Source of the DNA: a virus
Length of the DNA: 42,023 nt
Virus record (IMG/VR): IMGVR_UViG_3300010885_018066
Location: 1-42,023 of that record
Direction: 5' to 3' (one strand)
Below the pieces are notes generated by a model. It worked only from the letters and a program-made list of their open reading frames with translations. It was not told the DNA's origin and ran no database searches. Shown here in pieces: positions 15,168 through 25,649 of the stretch. A program made the translations under genes and the position numbers. Positions within the stretch are counted from its first letter, which is position 1. The number at the start of each line of letters is the position of its first letter.

Positions 15168-15193
15168 AATTAATTCACAGTTAAAGAAACGAA

Positions 15194-15340
15194 ATGACAC
15201 GCTTCCATTTCTACCCTATCCTATATTCATCCTACGTATTCCGGCTATTATACCTACACACAGGATATGATGACCGTAGCCTAATATGGATAGTGAACGG
15301 AAAGATACATGATTTTTTATTCATCAAAATTAAAGCATAA
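15194..15340 (+). CDS. Small hypothetical protein (48 aa), stop codon inside attC-like site
   Basis: Starts MTRFHFYPILYSSYVFRLLY, rich in aromatics. Its stop TAA (15338-15340) is part of the GCATAAC half-site that opens the first cassette-like array, as also seen for two other genes here. No matching GTT end was found upstream, so it may be phage-borne rather than a cassette. No family recognised. Confidence 0.45.
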   Translation: MTRFHFYPILYSSYVFRLLYLHTGYDDRSLIWIVNGKIHDFLFIKIKA

Positions 15341-15473
15341 CGTATCGAGGCTTGTTTTAGTGCCGATTATTAACAATAAATTAAATTAGAATGACACAGA
15401 TAAAATCAAAGGCAAAAGTTTCTACGAAGCCAAAAATTAAGGCATTGAAACAAGGTGCTGTTAGCAGCAGTGC
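15335..15473 (+). repeat. attC-like site S1
   Basis: GCATAAC (15335-15341), then CTTGTTTTAGTGCC (15351-15364), which pairs at all 14 positions (two as G-T) with GGCATTGAAACAAG (15441-15454), then GTTAGCAGCAGTGC (15460-15473). Outer ends are not complementary to each other, while the inner pair is, as expected for a junction of two different integron cassettes. Confidence 0.55.
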
Positions 15474-15621
15474 TAATGGTAAAATTGAAGGTGAAAAGTA
15501 TTACTATATGCACTCAGGCGATTGCTATGTATATGTTACATATTGCGAAAACTGTAAAAAAGAAGTAGGTAGTTGGACACCTGATGAAGCTGCTAATAAG
15601 TGGTTGGAGCATTGCTGCTAA
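15391..15621 (+). CDS. Cassette 1: small Cys-containing protein (up to 76 aa)
   Basis: The frame ends in YVTYCENCKKEVGSWTPDEA...WLEHCC, with C-x2-C and a CC end; this faintly resembles the zinc-ribbon half of Lar-type restriction-alleviation proteins, but I would not assign it. The first 23 codons (from ATG 15391) are encoded by the loop and arm of attC-like site S1, so the native protein may begin later (Met 15508) or be a fusion made on insertion. The stop lies within the GCTAAC half-site. Cassette ends GTTAGCAGCAGTGC (15460) and GCATTGCTGCTAAC (15609-15622) are complementary at 13 of 14. Confidence 0.5.
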   Translation: MTQIKSKAKVSTKPKIKALKQGAVSSSANGKIEGEKYYYMHSGDCYVYVTYCENCKKEVGSWTPDEAANKWLEHCC

Positions 15622-15705
15622 CGCTGACGGGTATGGGAAGTAATTTTTAACAATAAAAGTCAAATGAAAAGGAAAAAATTATTTACTATACCCGATGTTA
15701 TGCCC
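15609..15705 (+). repeat. attC-like site S2
   Basis: GCATTGCTGCTAAC (15609-15622), inner stem CGGGTAT (15628-15634) with ATACCCG (15688-15694), a second paired block 15638-15648 with 15674-15684, then GTTATGCCC (15697-15705). Confidence 0.6.
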
Positions 15706-15864
15706 GCCCTGCGAAAGTTTGGTTTTCTCAAAAGGGGGTGGCTGTTTGTATGGGATTCTTTTGCATCTGATGGAGCATCATTTAGAAGTGCAATGGAATA
15801 TTGCGATGAACAATATTGGTATAATGTAGGAAAAACAATACGAGAAAATGAAAAGCGTAAATAG
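15664..15864 (+). CDS. Uncertain ORF spanning site S2 (66 aa)
   Basis: Starts MKRKKLFTIPDVMPALRKFG. The first dozen codons lie in the arm of site S2, and the middle is encoded by one copy of the 22-bp inverted repeat. An in-frame ATG at 15700 lies just after the half-site. It overlaps the PP-loop gene by 17 nt. The C-terminal half (SAMEYCDEQYWYNVGKTIRE) looks protein-like, so a small gene carried in the cassette is possible. Confidence 0.35.
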   Translation: MKRKKLFTIPDVMPALRKFGFLKRGWLFVWDSFASDGASFRSAMEYCDEQYWYNVGKTIRENEKRK

Positions 15865-16709
15865 TATATCAGGAGGAAAAACAAGTGCGTATATGGCTAC
15901 GCATTATCCAGCAGACTACGAAGTATTCGCATTGGTTACTATTGAAGATAAGAACTGCTCACCAAAGGATGAAGCACTTATCAAAATAGTATCAGATAAG
16001 ATAGGTAAGGAGTTTATTGCGACAGCCGAAAGCGATTTGACATTGAAGGTAGTTATTGATTTAGAGCAGAAGATAGGCAAGGAAATTATTTGGGTTACAG
16101 GAAATACTTTTGAGAAGGTGAACAGAAAAGCAACGGGAGGTAAAGGATTGCCGAACCAACAATGGAGATTTTGCACTACTGAAATGAAGATGCGACCTAT
16201 ATGGGATTGGTGGTTTAAGAATATAGGCGAGAAGATTAAAATGGGTATCGGTTTCCGATACGATGAAATGGAACGAGCCGAAAGATTATCAACTTCATTT
16301 AAGGGAATTGTAGGAAAATCAGCAATGGGAACGAGAAACAAATGGGAAGAAATAGAATGGCGTGAAGGTTGTTTTCCATTGATTGAAAATAAGATAGTTC
16401 ACTATCAGGTAAAACAATGGGCAGATAAAAGTGGTATTATATTTCCATCCGATAGTAACTGCGTAGGTTGTTTTCATAAATCTATTCAGCAACTACGAAA
16501 GAACTTTGAAGATAATCCAGAGAAGATGCAATGGTTTGCAGACCAAGAAACAAATGCAAGATGGAAAAAGGAAATGAAGTACGAACAAATTAAAGCAGTT
16601 GGACTGCAACAAGATTTTAATTTCGGAGAAGGTAGCGGATGTAATGGTGGATTCTGTACGGACTAAATCGTATGGTGGTTGGCTGTTACCCCCTTTTGAG
16701 AAAACCAAA
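15718..16709. repeat. 22-bp perfect inverted repeat flanking the PP-loop gene
   Basis: 15718-15739 (begins TTTGGTTTTC, ends GGGGGT) is repeated exactly in inverse orientation at 16688-16709. Just outside them lie the 9-bp ends GTTATGCCC (15697-15705) and GGGCATAAC (16712-16720), also exact inverse copies. Confidence 0.85.
15848..16666 (+). CDS. Cassette 2: PP-loop (PAPS reductase-like) protein (272 aa)
   Basis: Adenine nucleotide alpha-hydrolase superfamily. PP-loop SISGGKTS at residues 6-13. Further Cys motifs WRFCTTEMKMRPI (about 107-119) and SNCVGCFHK (about 204-212), plus a Cys-rich end GSGCNGGFCTD. These could bind a metal or Fe-S cluster, as in sulfur-transfer members. Such genes are common in phages, but reaction and substrate cannot be deduced; sulfur modification of a nucleotide or DNA (DndC-like) is one option. 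The gene lies between inverse-repeated ends and overlaps the previous ORF by 17 nt. Confidence 0.75.
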   Translation: MKSVNSISGGKTSAYMATHYPADYEVFALVTIEDKNCSPKDEALIKIVSDKIGKEFIATAESDLTLKVVIDLEQKIGKEIIWVTGNTFEKVNRKATGGKGLPNQQWRFCTTEMKMRPIWDWWFKNIGEKIKMGIGFRYDEMERAERLSTSFKGIVGKSAMGTRNKWEEIEWREGCFPLIENKIVHYQVKQWADKSGIIFPSDSNCVGCFHKSIQQLRKNFEDNPEKMQWFADQETNARWKKEMKYEQIKAVGLQQDFNFGEGSGCNGGFCTD

Positions 16710-16711
16710 TT

Positions 16712-16738
16712 GGGCATAACTGGCGAATTGGCGAATGT
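16712..16738 (+). repeat. Terminal half-site S3 after cassette 2
   Basis: GGGCATAAC (16712-16720), exact inverse copy of the cassette's 5' end, followed by an 8-bp direct repeat (TGGCGAAT twice) and GTTAC. No inner stem is visible, so the site looks degenerate; the array ends here. Confidence 0.45.
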
Positions 16739-16761
16739 TACTTACACATAAAATATTGAAA

Positions 16762-16977
16762 ATGAAAGAATATAGTGTAATTCTTATTCGTGTGGTAAAT
16801 GGCATCGGAATAGACAAAAAGGCTAATGGATATTTATTAGACGGAACTCCCGTAAAAAGAAAAGTTTACAACGGAAGACTATGTTATCAGAACGGAAAAA
16901 CAAGAGTAGGATACAAGACACTTTCTGAATCAATACCTGTTAAAATAGAATTGAATAATTTTGAATATCCTTTTTAA
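16762..16977 (+). CDS. Small hypothetical protein (71 aa)
   Basis: Starts MKEYSVILIRVVNGIGIDKK and looks like a small beta-rich fold (YLLDGTPVKRKVYNGRLCYQ). ATG 16762 chosen over 16735, which lies in the array boundary. No family recognised. Confidence 0.5.
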   Translation: MKEYSVILIRVVNGIGIDKKANGYLLDGTPVKRKVYNGRLCYQNGKTRVGYKTLSESIPVKIELNNFEYPF

Positions 16978-16987
16978 AATAAAAATA

Positions 16988-17323
16988 ATGACACAAGAAC
17001 AAGTTAAACGAATTATGGAAGTTATGGAATCAGGAATGACGCAACGCGAAGCGGAGGGAAAGTTAGGAATCAGCGCCCGAACAATAGGCAAGGTTGCAAA
17101 GGAAAATGGATTTATACCGAACCGAATAGAGCAGAATCGCAAAGGACAATTAAAGTCCGAAAAGAACCTCGATAGGTGGGCAGAAATGACACAACTAAGC
17201 CTATGGAATAGAAAGCCACGAGCGGGTAATACTAAAGCGGTTCAGCGCGTTACTACATCGCACGTTCGATTACCAGCGCCTGAGAAATGGAGTGGTGATT
17301 CTTTCATATTAAATTGCTTTTGA
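16988..17323 (+). CDS. Helix-turn-helix protein (111 aa)
   Basis: Starts MTQEQVKRIMEVMESGMTQR; residues about 15-41 (GMTQREAEGKLGISARTIGK) form a Hin/resolvase-type helix-turn-helix. Basic tail. Start ATG 16988, not 16961 which would overlap the previous gene. Probably a DNA-binding regulator of the phage; target unknown. Confidence 0.6.
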   Translation: MTQEQVKRIMEVMESGMTQREAEGKLGISARTIGKVAKENGFIPNRIEQNRKGQLKSEKNLDRWAEMTQLSLWNRKPRAGNTKAVQRVTTSHVRLPAPEKWSGDSFILNCF

Positions 17324-20022: not shown

Positions 20023-22515
20023 TTACAGGTCAAATAGTGTGGGGACGTTTAGATTATAATTCTTGGCGTTCACATAGAAACATCCATCTTGAAAGTATTC
20101 TGTGTTTAGCTCTACACTTATCGCTTTTCGCTGCATCTCAATAGCCTTGTAAGCAGTTGAAAAAAGACCTCCAAAAGGGTCGTAAACAGTATCTCCTTTC
20201 ATACTGTAACGGTTTATTAAACGCTCTATAATATCTAACTGAAGCGGGCAAATGTGTTTCTCTTTTTTTGAGTTAGCTTGGTTTGTATTTAGAGTATCCA
20301 TTCTGTTAATATCTGTCCAAACCATATCAGTATTTGAGTGAACCGGCAAAGTCATGAATAGACTACTTAGCTTTCCAAATTCCTCTAAATACTCGCACGT
20401 TTCCAAATGTTCTTTGTAAGAATAAATATCTTCTTTATTATGCTTTTCCCAAGCCTTGCAAATTTTACCCAAATCGAATTTCTTTAACTCCTCCAAACTC
20501 ATAAATCTATTTCCATCGCTACGCTGGAAAGCATGAGCATCTAACTGCCATGTAGCGCGGGTGTAATCGCTTTTTTCTTTGTGGCAAGGTTCGTCAGCAT
20601 AAGCATTATTCATTTCAGTAGGTGCCTTTCTGAATAGCAGAATATACTCCGGCAATCCTACGCCCATCTTTGTAGAATCTTTACATTGTTCGCTCCATCC
20701 TAATCTGTATGTTTGGTTATTTTCGCGCACAACGTCCGTTACTACTGTAATTTTACCCATTAAGTAAAAACCATTATCTATAAAATGCTGAACCGTTTGA
20801 CCGCTAAAATCGGAAATAGTTGTAAATGAAGTTCCGTTTTGGTAACTATAACGAATACGGTCTTTTACATGGATAGCTGCCACATGACCCGGCTTTAATA
20901 CTCTTAAAAGATTTGGAGTTAGAAAATCCATTTGTTTGAAGAAATTGCCATTACCATGATTATGTCCGAAATCATTGTAGTTATCGGAGTATTCGTAATG
21001 GTCACCGAAAGGAATAGAGGTTACAATTAAATCAATACTGTTTTCAGGTAGCTCAGCTGAAATTACAACTGTATCGTTGTTGTATAAAGTAGCCGCACCG
21101 ATAACATTCTTTTTGCCGTTTTTAAAGATTTGTCTTTCCATTTGTTGTTTTATTATTTGTTTGTTTAAACCATATTCTTTTACTAATTCAATCATGTTTT
21201 GTTGTAGCTTTTTATGATTCTCCCACTTCTCATAAAGTGCTTTCAATACTTCATATTCGTTATCGGTATAAATGATGTGAACCGTTACCTGCTTAGTTTG
21301 CCCGAAGCGATAAATACGGTGAATGGCTTGGATGAAATCATTAAACTTGTAATCAATTCCAACGAAGATAGCTGATGCGCAATACTCTTGGAAGTTACAG
21401 CCGCTACCTGCTATCTTTGGTTTGGTTAAAAGATAATCATATTTGTTTTCTGAAAAGTCAATTAGTAGCTTTTCTTTCTCAATATTCTTTTGACCTCCAT
21501 AAACTGATTCGTATTTAGTTTCATCGAATAGCTTTTCAAGATAGCCTCGCTCCGCTTCTAAATGATGCCAAATAATTGAGCTGTCATAATGCTTTGAAAG
21601 CTCGAATGCTTTTTCGCAACGTGTCGCAATGCTTTCTCTTTTTTCGCGCGAAACTTCGATGAGTGAATTTGCCATGTTTCTAAACATTACAGTATCTCCC
21701 CACTTATCTACATAGCTTTCTTTCGATTCTGCTTTTACCATGTGTTCAACTACTTCTATTTCCGGCAAATCGTATCCTGTATTGTCATATCCTAAATCGC
21801 TCGGCATGTTTACGAATACTGCCCACGTTGAAACCCACATCCAAAACTCTTTTTCTTTGTTTGGATATAAAGTGAGGTGCCCTGCTTTTGTAGAATCTCT
21901 TTGAAAGAATCTTGTAAGCAAATGCCCGCGCGAAGCAACGCCCAAATAAACGGCATAGTTTAATATTTCTATGTAGTCATTTGGCGTAGGTGTAGCAGTT
22001 GCAACAAAGCGATATGGAACCTGTGAGAATCGCTTTAAAATGTAGTTAGTTGTTTCTGTTTTCAGGTTTCTTAAAATTGAAGCCTCATCGAAAGAAACAC
22101 CGCAAAATTTAGATGGGTCAATATCACCCATTCGCACCCTTTCATAATTAGTTATATAGATTTGTGGCTCGTAATTCTGAATAGTATCGGTATCGGTTAT
22201 GTATGTTATCTCATATCCAGTGCCTAGCTTTTTATTGTCACGTTTAAATTCACCTGCTACTGCTAAAGGACAGCATATTAAAAAAGGTTTGTTTTCCTTA
22301 TCAATACACTGTTTAGCAATTTCAAGTTGCATAAATGTTTTGCCTAAACCAAATGATGCAAAGATAGCCCTTCGCCCTCCTTTCAAACTCCAAAGGCAAA
22401 TGTCCTTTTGGTGAGGTTTGAGAATTGGTGTCATTGCACTTTCCGGCAAATCAAAACCGAAGTCCTCGCTTATAATTACTTTCGACTCTAAGAACTTTTC
22501 GTATTCACTTTTCAT
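20023..22515 (-). CDS. SNF2-type helicase fused to DNA methyltransferase (830 aa)
   Basis: N-terminal helicase: Walker A ASFGLGKT (53-60), DEAS box (143-146), VATATPTPND (171-180), motif VI QAIHRIYRFGQ (396-406). C-terminal beta-class amino-methyltransferase: catalytic-loop motif TSIPFGD (499-505) and SAM-binding DPFGG (779-783), in the order typical of the class. The usual SPP(Y/F) is SIPF here. Such fusions occur in temperate phages and may modify DNA while translocating; activity here is not certain. The minus-strand gene overlaps the 60-aa gene by 11 nt and ends at an intrinsic terminator. Confidence 0.85.
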   Translation of the reverse strand: MKSEYEKFLESKVIISEDFGFDLPESAMTPILKPHQKDICLWSLKGGRRAIFASFGLGKTFMQLEIAKQCIDKENKPFLICCPLAVAGEFKRDNKKLGTGYEITYITDTDTIQNYEPQIYITNYERVRMGDIDPSKFCGVSFDEASILRNLKTETTNYILKRFSQVPYRFVATATPTPNDYIEILNYAVYLGVASRGHLLTRFFQRDSTKAGHLTLYPNKEKEFWMWVSTWAVFVNMPSDLGYDNTGYDLPEIEVVEHMVKAESKESYVDKWGDTVMFRNMANSLIEVSREKRESIATRCEKAFELSKHYDSSIIWHHLEAERGYLEKLFDETKYESVYGGQKNIEKEKLLIDFSENKYDYLLTKPKIAGSGCNFQEYCASAIFVGIDYKFNDFIQAIHRIYRFGQTKQVTVHIIYTDNEYEVLKALYEKWENHKKLQQNMIELVKEYGLNKQIIKQQMERQIFKNGKKNVIGAATLYNNDTVVISAELPENSIDLIVTSIPFGDHYEYSDNYNDFGHNHGNGNFFKQMDFLTPNLLRVLKPGHVAAIHVKDRIRYSYQNGTSFTTISDFSGQTVQHFIDNGFYLMGKITVVTDVVRENNQTYRLGWSEQCKDSTKMGVGLPEYILLFRKAPTEMNNAYADEPCHKEKSDYTRATWQLDAHAFQRSDGNRFMSLEELKKFDLGKICKAWEKHNKEDIYSYKEHLETCEYLEEFGKLSSLFMTLPVHSNTDMVWTDINRMDTLNTNQANSKKEKHICPLQLDIIERLINRYSMKGDTVYDPFGGLFSTAYKAIEMQRKAISVELNTEYFQDGCFYVNAKNYNLNVPTLFDL

Positions 22516-22885: not shown

Positions 22886-23206
22886 CTATTTCTTCACTCC
22901 CGAAATTATAGCTTTCAATATTGCCATTATATCCGGAACACTTTGTTTCGATACACCAGTTACCAATAGTTCCGCATTCGCCACATCGTAAGTGATACGG
23001 CCACTTACGATATACTTTTGAAGTTGCTCGGTGTTATAAAGATTCTCACAACTAATTGAAACCGTAAACGTTCCATCATCATTAGCCTTAATAGACGAAT
23101 CAGGACAATGCTTGTGAACGAAGTCGGTTGCTTTTTTTGTAGCGTTACAAGATGGCAAAGAAGCGATGATAAATAGGCTTAGGACTGCGATTAATAGTTT
23201 TTTCAT
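22886..23206 (-). CDS. Lipoprotein (106 aa)
   Basis: Signal peptide MKKLLIAVLSLFIIASLPSC with lipobox SLPSC (Cys20) and a small soluble domain of about 85 residues containing two more Cys (C34, C53). Exported to the host envelope. Phage lipoproteins often block superinfection or act in lysis; neither can be shown. A TACATTCGC box (23229-23221) lies 14 nt upstream, and a terminator follows, so it is probably its own transcription unit. Confidence 0.65.
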   Translation of the reverse strand: MKKLLIAVLSLFIIASLPSCNATKKATDFVHKHCPDSSIKANDDGTFTVSISCENLYNTEQLQKYIVSGRITYDVANAELLVTGVSKQSVPDIMAILKAIISGVKK

Positions 23207-23220
23207 GTTTATTGTTTTGT

Positions 23221-23229
23221 GCGAATGTA
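23221..23229 (-). promoter_or_regulatory. TACATTCGC box upstream of lipoprotein gene
   Basis: Variant -7 element, 14 nt before ATG 23206. Next to it (23239-23261) is a 10-bp direct repeat GTTGTAGTTT x2, too short for a CRISPR. Confidence 0.35.
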
Positions 23230-23280
23230 AAAAATAAATTGTTGTAGTTTGTTGTAGTTTCGGTTTTTAGTTTTAATATT

Positions 23281-23382
23281 GCACCGATAACGGTTTGCAT
23301 ATAAGAGATGTGGCACTTATACGAATGTTTAAATCAAGGTACAAAGCCAAATGTGCCATATCTTTTATACGCTGTTATGTGC
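23281..23382 (+). repeat. attC-like site S4
   Basis: GCACCGATAAC (23281-23291), a 16-bp inner stem (23301-23316 with 23353-23368, two G-T pairs), then GTTATGTGC (23374-23382). Left boundary of the second array. Confidence 0.6.
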
Positions 23383-23418
23383 TGGGCGGATTATCATCAC
23401 TAAATTTAATTTAAAAAA

Positions 23419-23694
23419 ATGGATTTTAACAAAATAGAAATTATATTAAACGGAGAAATTGTCAATCCTGAAATTATTTCTTTCAATTTAGAACAAGACG
23501 AAAAATCAATAACTCAAAATATCAAATTTAATAGTAGAGAGGATATGATTTTAGCAATACAAAGAGTTGGAATAAAAATACATTACGGAGTAGGTGATTT
23601 TCCTGTCAGCTATTCTTTGCCTGATGATATAGGCTTAAATAATGATTCTTTGAAATTTTTAACTACAATTAAACGTTCTGAGTGGTTGCCGTAG
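23419..23694 (+). CDS. Cassette 3: hypothetical protein (91 aa)
   Basis: Starts MDFNKIEIILNGEIVNPEII; a beta-rich small protein that resembles immunity-type or contact-system accessory folds only in general shape. Complete gene between GTTATGTGC (23374) and GCACCAATAAC (23699-23709); these ends are complementary apart from a 2-nt bulge. A-rich start region is typical of Bacteroidota. No family recognised. Confidence 0.55.
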   Translation: MDFNKIEIILNGEIVNPEIISFNLEQDEKSITQNIKFNSREDMILAIQRVGIKIHYGVGDFPVSYSLPDDIGLNNDSLKFLTTIKRSEWLP

Positions 23695-23698
23695 ACTT

Positions 23699-23843
23699 GC
23701 ACCAATAACGGTTCTCGGCTTTGCGATGGTGGTGGACTTTGAAATACAAAAGTTGAAAATATGCAGTACAGTTTATTTGAAAATATAGTGCCCAATGACT
23801 TCCGTCAGCCCCCATTGCAGCAATGCAGTGTTGGCAGTAGTGC
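23699..23843 (+). repeat. attC-like site S5
   Basis: GCACCAATAAC (23699-23709), a short inner pairing GCGATGG (23723-23729) with CCATTGC (23812-23818), then GTTGGCAGTAGTGC (23830-23843). The inner stem is weaker than in S4 and S6. Confidence 0.45.
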
Positions 23844-23868
23844 GGTCAATTCAAGTGGGCATTATGTG

Positions 23869-24165
23869 ATGCTTACTGGAATAAGGGAACGAAACTTTTT
23901 AGCTTACAATGTTGGTGCTTTTGAAATGTCAAATGAAGATGTGTCGGACGAAGATATTTTGCACTTGAAATACAAAGAATTAACTCCAACAATCCAAAAG
24001 TTGAAATCTGAAACTTGGTCTTGTGATTGCGAATACTTCTTTGTCTTACAGGCAGAAGGAATTTATTTAATGAGTGTTTCAACAGATACTTTTTTTCTGT
24101 GCAAAAAACATAGTATGAAATTTATTAAACACTTTATAAATGCTCCTTTGAAATTGAAGAAGTAG
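23869..24165 (+). CDS. Cassette 4: hypothetical protein (98 aa; frame open from 23761)
   Basis: Starts MLTGIRERNFLAYNVGAFEM in the short form. The frame reaches back to ATG 23761 (134 aa), but that part is encoded by site S5, so the native start is probably ATG 23869 or GTG 23866. Acidic N-terminal half, CDCEYFFVLQ in the middle. Cassette ends GTTGGCAGTAGTGC and GCATTACTGCCAAC are complementary at 13 of 14. No family recognised. Confidence 0.5.
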   Translation: MLTGIRERNFLAYNVGAFEMSNEDVSDEDILHLKYKELTPTIQKLKSETWSCDCEYFFVLQAEGIYLMSVSTDTFFLCKKHSMKFIKHFINAPLKLKK

Positions 24166-24309
24166 CATTACTGCCAACGTTTGCGGCTTGGCGAAGGGGG
24201 GGAATTTAACCCACAAAAGCCGATTAGAATTACTAATGTTCAATAACAGATAAATGATGATAGAAGGACTAAAGCCCCCATTTTGCCAAGCCGATGTTAG
24301 CGGAAGGCA
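24165..24309 (+). repeat. attC-like site S6 (best formed)
   Basis: GCATTACTGCCAAC (24165-24178), perfect 9-bp inner stem CGGCTTGGC (24184-24192) with GCCAAGCCG (24285-24293), extended by GGGGG (24196-24200) with CCCCC (24275-24279), then GTTAGCGGAAGGCA (24296-24309). The two outer parts do not pair with each other but pair with the far ends of the two neighbouring cassettes. Confidence 0.7.
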
Positions 24310-25009
24310 TGGGTTAATTCAAGGGAACGCAATGGATTTAATTTGCGATTTAGACGACCATAGTATTGACTTAACAATATTAGACCCCGATTATCAGGAT
24401 TGGGATAAACTTTGCGAAGAAGGTTTAATTTGTCAAGCAGTAAGGGTTACAAAACTAACAGGAAACATTATTTGCTTTACTAAGCAGCCATTTGATTTTG
24501 AATTAAGAAACGAAGTAAATCACATATTTAGGCGTGAAATTATTTGGAGTTTTTCAAATGGCGGTGCTTGGGTAAGTAAGCGAATGCCACTTGTATCCTT
24601 CCAAAAAATATTCTGGCTTACATTGAGTAAAGACTTTTATGTAGATGTAAGAACTGGATTAGATTACAATGAAGGCACAAAATCAATGAAGCGAAGTAGT
24701 AAGGTATTTGGGGACTACAAAGCGGAAGGAAGGCAATTTGATAAATCAGATGAAGGAACCTGGATAAGAGATCACTATCATTTTAATAAGCCACATACGG
24801 GAAAAATACCTGCAAAGCCAAAAGATTTAATACAGATACTTATTAAATGCTTTTGCCCTGAAAATGGGATAGTTTTAGACCCGTTTTTTGGGAGTGGAAT
24901 AGTTGGCGAAGTTTGTCAAGAATTAAATAGGAATTTTATAGCATACGAAATTGATGAACAAAGGGTAAAAATGTTCAATGATAAGCAGGGTGCTAATGCT
25001 TTCCGCTAA
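24254..25009 (+). CDS. Cassette 5: DNA amino-methyltransferase (251 aa)
   Basis: Beta-class N4-cytosine/N6-adenine methyltransferase: LIQGNAMDLI opening (about 21-30), catalytic motif LDPDY (42-46, DPDY instead of DPPY), then FTKQPFDF, and C-terminal SAM motif VLDPFFGSGIVGEV (about 214-227). The first 14 codons from ATG 24254 lie in site S6, upstream of the cassette's GTT end; the next ATG (24332) would cut the conserved LIQG strand, so the working start may be borrowed from the previous cassette. The stop TAA lies in the CGCTAAC half-site at the other end. No restriction partner nearby. Confidence 0.8.
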   Translation: MMIEGLKPPFCQADVSGRHGLIQGNAMDLICDLDDHSIDLTILDPDYQDWDKLCEEGLICQAVRVTKLTGNIICFTKQPFDFELRNEVNHIFRREIIWSFSNGGAWVSKRMPLVSFQKIFWLTLSKDFYVDVRTGLDYNEGTKSMKRSSKVFGDYKAEGRQFDKSDEGTWIRDHYHFNKPHTGKIPAKPKDLIQILIKCFCPENGIVLDPFFGSGIVGEVCQELNRNFIAYEIDEQRVKMFNDKQGANAFR

Positions 25010-25010
25010 C
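24997..25010 (+). repeat. Terminal half-site S7
   Basis: TGCTTTCCGCTAAC, complementary at 13 of 14 to the cassette's 5' end (24296-24309). No inner arm follows, so the array ends in a truncated site. Confidence 0.6.
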
Positions 25011-25053
25011 TCCGATATTTACGCAACTAAATTTTACAACTAACTAAAAATCA

Positions 25054-25326
25054 ATGACAAGTAGTTTTACTTTGGTAGGTGGAGAATCTTATCGAATAGT
25101 CGGGAAACGCCCGAACCATAAGATATACCGGCTACCGTACATAGACAAAGCAGGAAGGCAGCAACCGTTGAAACTTATCTCTAAAACAAAATGCGGTGGG
25201 TCTATCGGGTGGAATTTGGAAATAGACGGGCGAATGGCTTTTAAAAGTGAAACAGCGGTTAAATCGCTTCTAATTAAGTGCGACAAAATGGAGTTGAATT
25301 TTAGGGAAAAAGGTATGCCGTTTTAA
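25054..25326 (+). CDS. Hypothetical protein (90 aa)
   Basis: Starts MTSSFTLVGGESYRIVGKRP; basic, beta-rich (YRLPYIDKAGRQQPLKLI). It follows the second array but has no cassette-type ends. Its stop overlaps the stop of the convergent gene. No family recognised. Confidence 0.55.
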   Translation: MTSSFTLVGGESYRIVGKRPNHKIYRLPYIDKAGRQQPLKLISKTKCGGSIGWNLEIDGRMAFKSETAVKSLLIKCDKMELNFREKGMPF

Positions 25327-25649
25327 AGTCGGTATTTTGATTTCTTTGACTTCGCCCTATTATAAATATCATCAGCGTTCAATCTTGCCGTTAATTGGCT
25401 AACCAATTCCGCTCTATCTTCCGCGTTTAAATCGTTGCAAATCATACTTACATTGGTGGTGATGTCTAATTCGGGATGGTGGCGTAAATCATGGAAACGC
25501 TTATCGAATATTCGCGTCATTTCCTGCCCTGATATACGCGGTTTCTTTATCTCGAATCTTTCTTCTTGAATCTTTTCACTCGGTGTTACTTTCGTACTGA
25601 ATACGAATGCGGCTTTAATAGCCTCAAATAGTGCGGTTAGCCATGTCAT
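25323..25649 (-). CDS. Hypothetical protein, possible membrane anchor (108 aa)
   Basis: Starts MTWLTALFEAIKAAFVFSTK, a short hydrophobic/amphipathic N-terminus, then a charged helical part (EMTRIFDKRFHDLRHHPELD). ATG 25649 preferred to 25667 because the latter lies inside the TATATTCGC box. Last gene of the lysis-side unit, after a terminator. Function unknown. Confidence 0.5.
   Translation of the reverse strand: MTWLTALFEAIKAAFVFSTKVTPSEKIQEERFEIKKPRISGQEMTRIFDKRFHDLRHHPELDITTNVSMICNDLNAEDRAELVSQLTARLNADDIYNRAKSKKSKYRL

Follow-up and report, generated by a model that had tools for sequence, protein, structure and literature searches.

Integron-like gene cassettes in a tailed phage genome and a XerA-like recombinase associated with related arrays

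Gene cassette arrays in the phage genome

The window, which is the whole stretch of 42,023 nucleotides that was analysed (IMG/VR record IMGVR_UViG_3300010885_018066), comes from a tailed phage that encodes sheath, tape measure, portal and terminase proteins; the sheath gene marks it as a myovirus, and its relatives suggest that its host is a Bacteroidota bacterium. Three plus-strand genes, encoding proteins of 91 aa and 134 aa and an N6/N4 DNA methyltransferase, are flanked by a 106-aa gene on the minus strand and by a 90-aa gene. On the gene strand the mobile units run from the G that follows one AAC up to and including the next AAC, and this defines cassettes A, B and C of array 2 (Table 1). 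The inverted ends and inner stems that a first-pass annotation of this DNA had described are present where it placed them; its gene of about 98 aa comprises 134 aa if read from the ATG in the hairpin loop. The absence of an integrase that it noted was borne out, as neither an integrase nor another recombinase was detected in the window (no PF00589 match).

Each cassette carries its own hairpin. For cassette A, sequence and predicted fold show the inner stem (about 23299-23318 with 23354-23372) and the 2-nt bulge of the unit; in cassette C the start codon lies inside the hairpin loop and the stop codon inside the terminal TAAC. The genes of cassettes A (91 aa) and B (134 aa) gave no Pfam match, the Rfam search returned nothing, and scans for promoters and terminators stayed at chance level. 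The right junction of the array is tentatively regarded as attI-like on the basis of its resemblance to such sites elsewhere, and the next ORF past it, at 25054, does not encode a recombinase. Upstream of the array, an 830-aa protein (20023-22515) has matches to families of phage DNA helicases and, over its second half, to families of DNA methyltransferases.

Table 1. Coordinates of the cassettes and their sequence elements in the window.
Feature	Position	Strand	Description
AAC at left edge of array 2	23289-23291	+	Preceded by backbone common to sibling phage L080 up to 23282
Cassette A	23292-23709	+	Hairpin, R' GTTATGTGC at 23374, 91-aa ORF 23419-23694, R'' ending in GCACCAATAAC
Cassette B	23710-24178	+	Hairpin, ATG in loop (23761), 134-aa ORF 23761-24165, R' GTTGGCAGTAGTGC (23830-23843) pairing with R'' GCATTACTGCCAAC (24165-24178)
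Cassette C	24179-25010	+	N6/N4 DNA methyltransferase, 251 aa, ORF 24254-25009; PF01555, E 1.6e-23
Cassette C inner stem	24184-24192 / 24285-24293	+	CGGCTTGGC / GCCAAGCCG, perfect 9-bp
Cassette C R' arm	24296-24309	+	GTTAGCGGAAGGCA, pairs with the R'' arm; has the G of the G:T mismatch, position 11
Cassette C R'' arm	24997-25010	+	TGCTTTCCGCTAAC; has the T of the G:T mismatch
Right junction	25011-25025	+	TCCGATATTTACGC, resembles attI-like site, e.g. TCCCATATGTATTC in L149
Array 1 cassette D	15342-15622	+	76-aa ORF 15391-15621, R' at 15460, R'' ending 15622, G:T signature
Array 1 cassette E	15623-16720	+	ORFs 15664-15864 and 15848-16666; ends GTTATGCCC (15697) / GGGCATAAC (ends 16720)

Array 1 (15342-16720) consists of two further cassettes of the same kind, one of which has the G:T signature described below. 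The second ORF of cassette E contains the PP-loop motif SxGGKTS; PAPS-reductase-like or PP-loop genes also recur as cargo in other contigs (3 of 74 representatives), possibly in connection with DNA modification or counter-defence.

When the ends of cassette C are joined as in a circle, a long imperfect hairpin is predicted on the top strand (-33.2 kcal/mol, z -4.3) and on the bottom strand (-26.4 kcal/mol, z -2.6). The ends of the array 1 cassette, joined in the same way, also fold into a long imperfect hairpin, and the folding energies of cassette A, a weak case, are near those of shuffled sequences. The bottom strand has a C.A mismatch in place of the G:T pair, and we speculate that this mismatch could mark one strand in the way the unpaired bases of attC sites do.

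Pairing signature, unit boundaries and alternative occupancy

Arm pairing was searched directly against shuffled sequence, the hairpin loops being too divergent for a covariance model. A plain search for ends pairing at 12 of 13 bases gave four matches in the window versus 1.9 per shuffle, and end pairing combined with an inner stem gave two versus 1.05; with counts so near the shuffle level, the structure by itself does not reach significance in a window of 42 kb. The discriminating feature is a fixed mismatch, noticed first in 130 units from other contigs, in which pairing drops at position 11; 125 of these units have G opposite T there. The three pairs of the window that match at 13 of 14 bases (15460/15622 in array 1, 23830/24178 and 24296/25010) all have the G opposite T at position 11 as their sole mismatch. 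This G:T signature (14 pairs with one G:T mismatch at position 11) occurs three times in the window, on the gene strand only, versus a mean of 0.005 in 400 shuffles, and 186 times in 2.2 Mb of fetched loci, chosen for their related content, versus none in one full shuffle.

The units have the paired outer arms (AAC end and GTT start) and the paired inner arms of attC sites, although the common cores GTTATAA, GTTAGCA, GTTATGT and GTTAGCG fit the RYYYAAC/GTTRRRY consensus only partly. With sites defined by the G:T signature, the window holds at least two attC-like sites and no integrase nearby, as in a CALIN.

The limits of the methyltransferase unit were located by comparison with five IMG/VR contigs (L002-L006), in which it is 91-95% identical and has unrelated flanks on both sides. 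Homology starts at the AAC at 24176-24178 and stops at 25010 or 25011, and the unit therefore extends from G(24179) to the AAC ending at 25010, with the hairpin 5' of its own gene. Read on the opposite strand, the same unit follows the integron rule (G^TT...G), with the gene then running backwards.

Alternative occupancy was observed at both arrays. The related phage L002 carries the methyltransferase cassette at the backbone site of array 1, where 15192-15342 and 16727-17208 of the window align on either side. In the closer sibling L080, the sequences bordering array 2 (22887-23282 and 25022-25400 of the window) align at 86-88%, and the 3.1 kb between them consists of other cassettes, including three other methyltransferases recognised by sequence motif. 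Comparisons of this kind are what the first-pass annotation had asked for; junctions vary at GTT/AAC points in relatives, and the invariant junctions that it named as evidence against its reading were not encountered. Its proposal of mobile attC-like cassettes holds for the ends and for the mobility, and had to be revised for the crossover point and the gene orientation: the crossover point is the AAC that follows a gene (G^TT on the opposite strand) and not the GTT that precedes it. A hairpin therefore belongs to the downstream gene, and the gene orientation is the reverse of that in classical cassettes.

This polarity is general among the strict units from other contigs. An ORF is present in 129 of 130, on the strand that places the hairpin 5' in 126 of the 129, and the attC-like site therefore does not lie 3' of the cassette gene as in canonical integrons. 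The first ATG of the longest ORF falls within the hairpin loop in 55 of the 126 units, and stop codons are found preferentially 1 or 13 nt ahead of the AAC end. The cassette genes seem to be positioned for expression from the upstream phage operon. Their 126 proteins form 93 families; the recognised cargo comprises DNA methyltransferases, Mom, Dam, PAPS-reductase-like, GNAT and PARP proteins.

Two observations are left unexplained by the cassette model. The 4-5 nt between the AAC/G boundary and the inner stem are hypervariable across the methyltransferase copies (gtttg, gtttt, ggcta, gccta and ggtcg, at 24179-24183 and in L002-L006), and 83% of the columns of this spacer vary between copies of one cassette, compared with 15% elsewhere. 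The model does not predict this variability, which counts against it. The other is a leader swap at L080:6054-6180, where the leader and hairpin of the methyltransferase cassette stand before a C5-methyltransferase-like gene, the joint being at the GTT of the R' arm.

A search of genome contigs with the methyltransferase returned only distant matches in Spirochaetota, and no close isolate was found in phage or plasmid collections.

A recombinase linked to related arrays and natural cassette deletions in phage isolates

Two contigs related to the window via the phage helicase (L038 and L046) contain arrays directly followed by a gene for a tyrosine recombinase, which a scan located in 54 loci, these two included. 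In these loci, some of which nearly duplicate others, 110 units were detected upstream of the recombinase and 11 downstream; 14.2 would be expected from shuffles. A test that was not selected on pairing identified, in 20 of 36 loci, an AAC within 140 nt before the recombinase with an upstream GTT partner (one mismatch or none), compared with 2.5% in shuffled upstream DNA. An attI-like sequence, TATTATATGTA or a variant of it, is conserved after the AAC, mostly 52-53 nt before the recombinase gene, in the place of the attI site of integrons. The contigs with this recombinase appear to be viral: checked for a chromosomal origin of the large ones, they showed no rpoB in 26 contigs and terminase matches in 11. 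Recombinase and arrays also occur together in contigs of 195-362 kb with terminase matches (L178, L187, L190, L191 and L193), apparently jumbo phages.

The array-linked recombinase is closest to XerA (PDB 5HXY, E 5e-33). It scores 182-188 bits on NF040815 (cut-off 220) and 139-161 bits on the integron integrase model TIGR02249 (cut-off 265). About 43 IntI residues, within 178-241 and before the HxxR motif, have no counterpart in the array-linked enzymes, and the alignment with 2A3V skips residues 181-244; the additional domain that characterises IntI, near patch III, is thus absent. An AlphaFold2 model (pLDDT 91, pTM 0.71) retrieves XerA as first match and IntI4 as second, and in a tree with few references and long branches the lone IntI falls outside the group of array-linked enzymes, which includes plasmid XerA-like proteins. 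The integron-like reading of the first-pass annotation needs a further revision here: the likely recombinase is not IntI, as the enzymes associated with such arrays are XerA-like and have no IntI insertion. As a small negative control, Xer-like relatives of Spirochaetota showed no arrays in eight loci.

The cassettes of the window are connected to this recombinase by homology. Hairpins that precede the recombinase gene in L172, L184 and L190 share homology with the leader of cassette A (23287-23409; E 9e-19 to 4e-10). The leader of the methyltransferase cassette has a homologous hairpin within the array of contig G038 (L065/L216), where a recombinase 55% identical to that of L038 is encoded as well. 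A close homologue was found in one of 45 records of the window's kind, most of which carry arrays only, and movement in trans is therefore proposed, probably by the recombinase of relatives. That neither the window nor most such contigs encode the enzyme counts against its presumed activity on these cassettes, the link being indirect.

Precise deletions of cassettes were found in Polaribacter phage Freya, of which 10 isolates were obtained on one host strain (PMC8776804) and which encodes a related recombinase, with 34% identity to the query, behind an array in which some arms are shorter. The array region was compared between isolates 1, 2, 5, 6, 8 and 10, whose aligned sequences beyond the array show 99.7-100% identity. 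Freya 1, 2, 5 and 8 correspond to isolate 10 minus whole cassettes, and the 400-nt junction predicted for exchange at AAC was found exactly in each; in Freya 6 this point is occupied by another cassette. The deletions in Freya 1, 2 and 5 end at the point equivalent to the attI-like site. The joints share 3 to about 20 nt, which is too short to make assembly collapse likely, and the spacer stays with the downstream element. In Freya 6 (L207 and L209), one cassette ORF apparently lies inside a large hairpin loop, with another ORF past the R' arm. The authors of the Freya study interpreted the integrase as indicating a temperate lifestyle; the words cassette and integron do not occur in the text of their paper (PMC8776804). 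A similar array with recombinase is present in Polaribacter phage Leef_1.

Proposed mechanism, alternatives and relation to known systems

We are confident, short of certainty, that 23292-25010 represents three integron-type gene cassettes at a phage gene-exchange hotspot, moved by a tyrosine recombinase at the end of AAC. Each unit would follow the plan G, spacer of 4-5 nt, stem, loop, complementary stem, 2 nt, GTT arm, gene and AAC arm. In a circularised unit the two arms would pair around the inner stem to form an attC-like hairpin, presumably the folded single-stranded substrate of a recombinase that would exchange units at AAC (G^TT on the other strand), with one strand preferred. The gene would point away from its own hairpin, opposite to classical cassettes, and with the ATG often in the loop and the stop in the terminal TAAC, units could be chained head to tail behind a phage operon. 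The catalyst would be the XerA-like recombinase without IntI insertion, encoded in relatives directly behind the array and its attI-like site and supplied here in trans; a methyltransferase gained in this way may benefit the phage against restriction. The weak fold of cassette A, the low identity of the Freya recombinase to the query and the shorter arms of some Freya units count against this reading.

An Xer-type exchange of modules on double-stranded sites, as for Acinetobacter p-dif, would treat the AAC flanks and the spacer as a duplex core and the hairpins as incidental. It agrees with the XerA-like nature of the enzyme and with the hypervariable spacer beside AAC, which resembles an overlap region. 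We nevertheless consider it unlikely: arms and inner stems keep their pairing, with one fixed mismatch, although their sequences change from unit to unit, which indicates a folded strand, and in the Freya deletions the spacer does not separate from the downstream element.

Even less probable is an ordinary CALIN, whose classical attC cassettes would stem from an integron of the host and be mobilised by a canonical IntI acting in trans. CALINs do occur in phages, and the site P12002L_attC2, from a Polaribacter phage array of the same architecture (L052), recombined with attI1 under IntI1 (PMC9892861), which supports the view that the cassette ends function as attC. Against this origin stand the array-attached recombinase without IntI insertion, from whose group the tested IntI branches apart, the reversal of the genes relative to the crossover side, and the very few complete integrons reported for Bacteroidetes with IntegronFinder 2 (PMC9024848). 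Ordinary 5'-UTR structures or terminators, with swaps by general homologous recombination over short leaders, would account for the methyltransferase leader joined at GTT to another gene in L080, yet this explanation is hardly credible given the exact boundaries in Freya with so little shared sequence, the arms that pair across the gene, the adjacency of arrays to one recombinase family, and the ordinary Xer-like genes of the eight Spirochaetota loci, which have no such units.

On the integron-type reading, the system works like an integron yet departs from it in the recombinase and in gene polarity. With integron arrays and CALINs it shares tandem single-gene units, imperfect hairpins with outer and inner arms, a G^TT/AAC crossover, an insertion site beside the recombinase, and diverse cargo rich in DNA methyltransferases and genes of no assigned function (PMC9892861). 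Unlike in integrons, the recombinase has no IntI-specific domain, the hairpin is located 5' of the gene with the start codon often in its loop, the cassettes have the fixed G:T mismatch at position 11, and the recombinase gene follows the array and is oriented like the cassette genes. The IntI-specific domain has been held necessary for integron activity (Messier and Roy 2001, as cited in PMC9668308). The XerA-like recombinases (NF040815, PDB 5HXY) are nearest by sequence and fold, whereas the phage enzyme remains below the family cut-off and goes with cassette arrays, not with chromosome dimer resolution. Acinetobacter p-dif modules (PMC7399989) likewise move genes by Xer-type recombination, but with host XerC/XerD and Xer sites, while the phage system has a dedicated enzyme and hairpin-forming ends. 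The reverse integrons of Spirochaetota also have an integrase gene oddly oriented relative to the array; mentioned in PMC9668308, they use IntI, unlike the phage system, in which the site polarity is inverted relative to the gene.

That attC sites and CALINs occur in virulent phages, including a Polaribacter phage with methyltransferases, was already published in 2023 (PMC9892861); the first-pass annotation had expected such an array to be unusual in a phage. Our literature search, with preprints and most subscription papers outside its scope, found no paper on arrays with a non-IntI recombinase, on reversed polarity or on natural excisions, and the novelty of these features is provisional. 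We lean, by a small measure, towards a second integron-type system, based on a separately evolved phage XerA-like lineage without IntI domain and forming a network through which Bacteroidota phages, many of which would carry arrays only, exchange anti-restriction and other accessory genes. A recombinase family without IntI domain beside hairpin-ended cassettes, apparently acting in cultured phages, would show another route of cassette capture and would account for the exchange of individual anti-defence genes, methyltransferases for example, between phages; Freya and Leef provide cultured model phages for the cassette system.

A relative of the phage cassette recombinase is also found on plasmids: TnpF of plasmid pHH1107 (L215:2486-3151), whose gene adjoins tet(X3), is 49% identical to it (77% coverage), and close copies of TnpF are present on many Acinetobacter plasmids.
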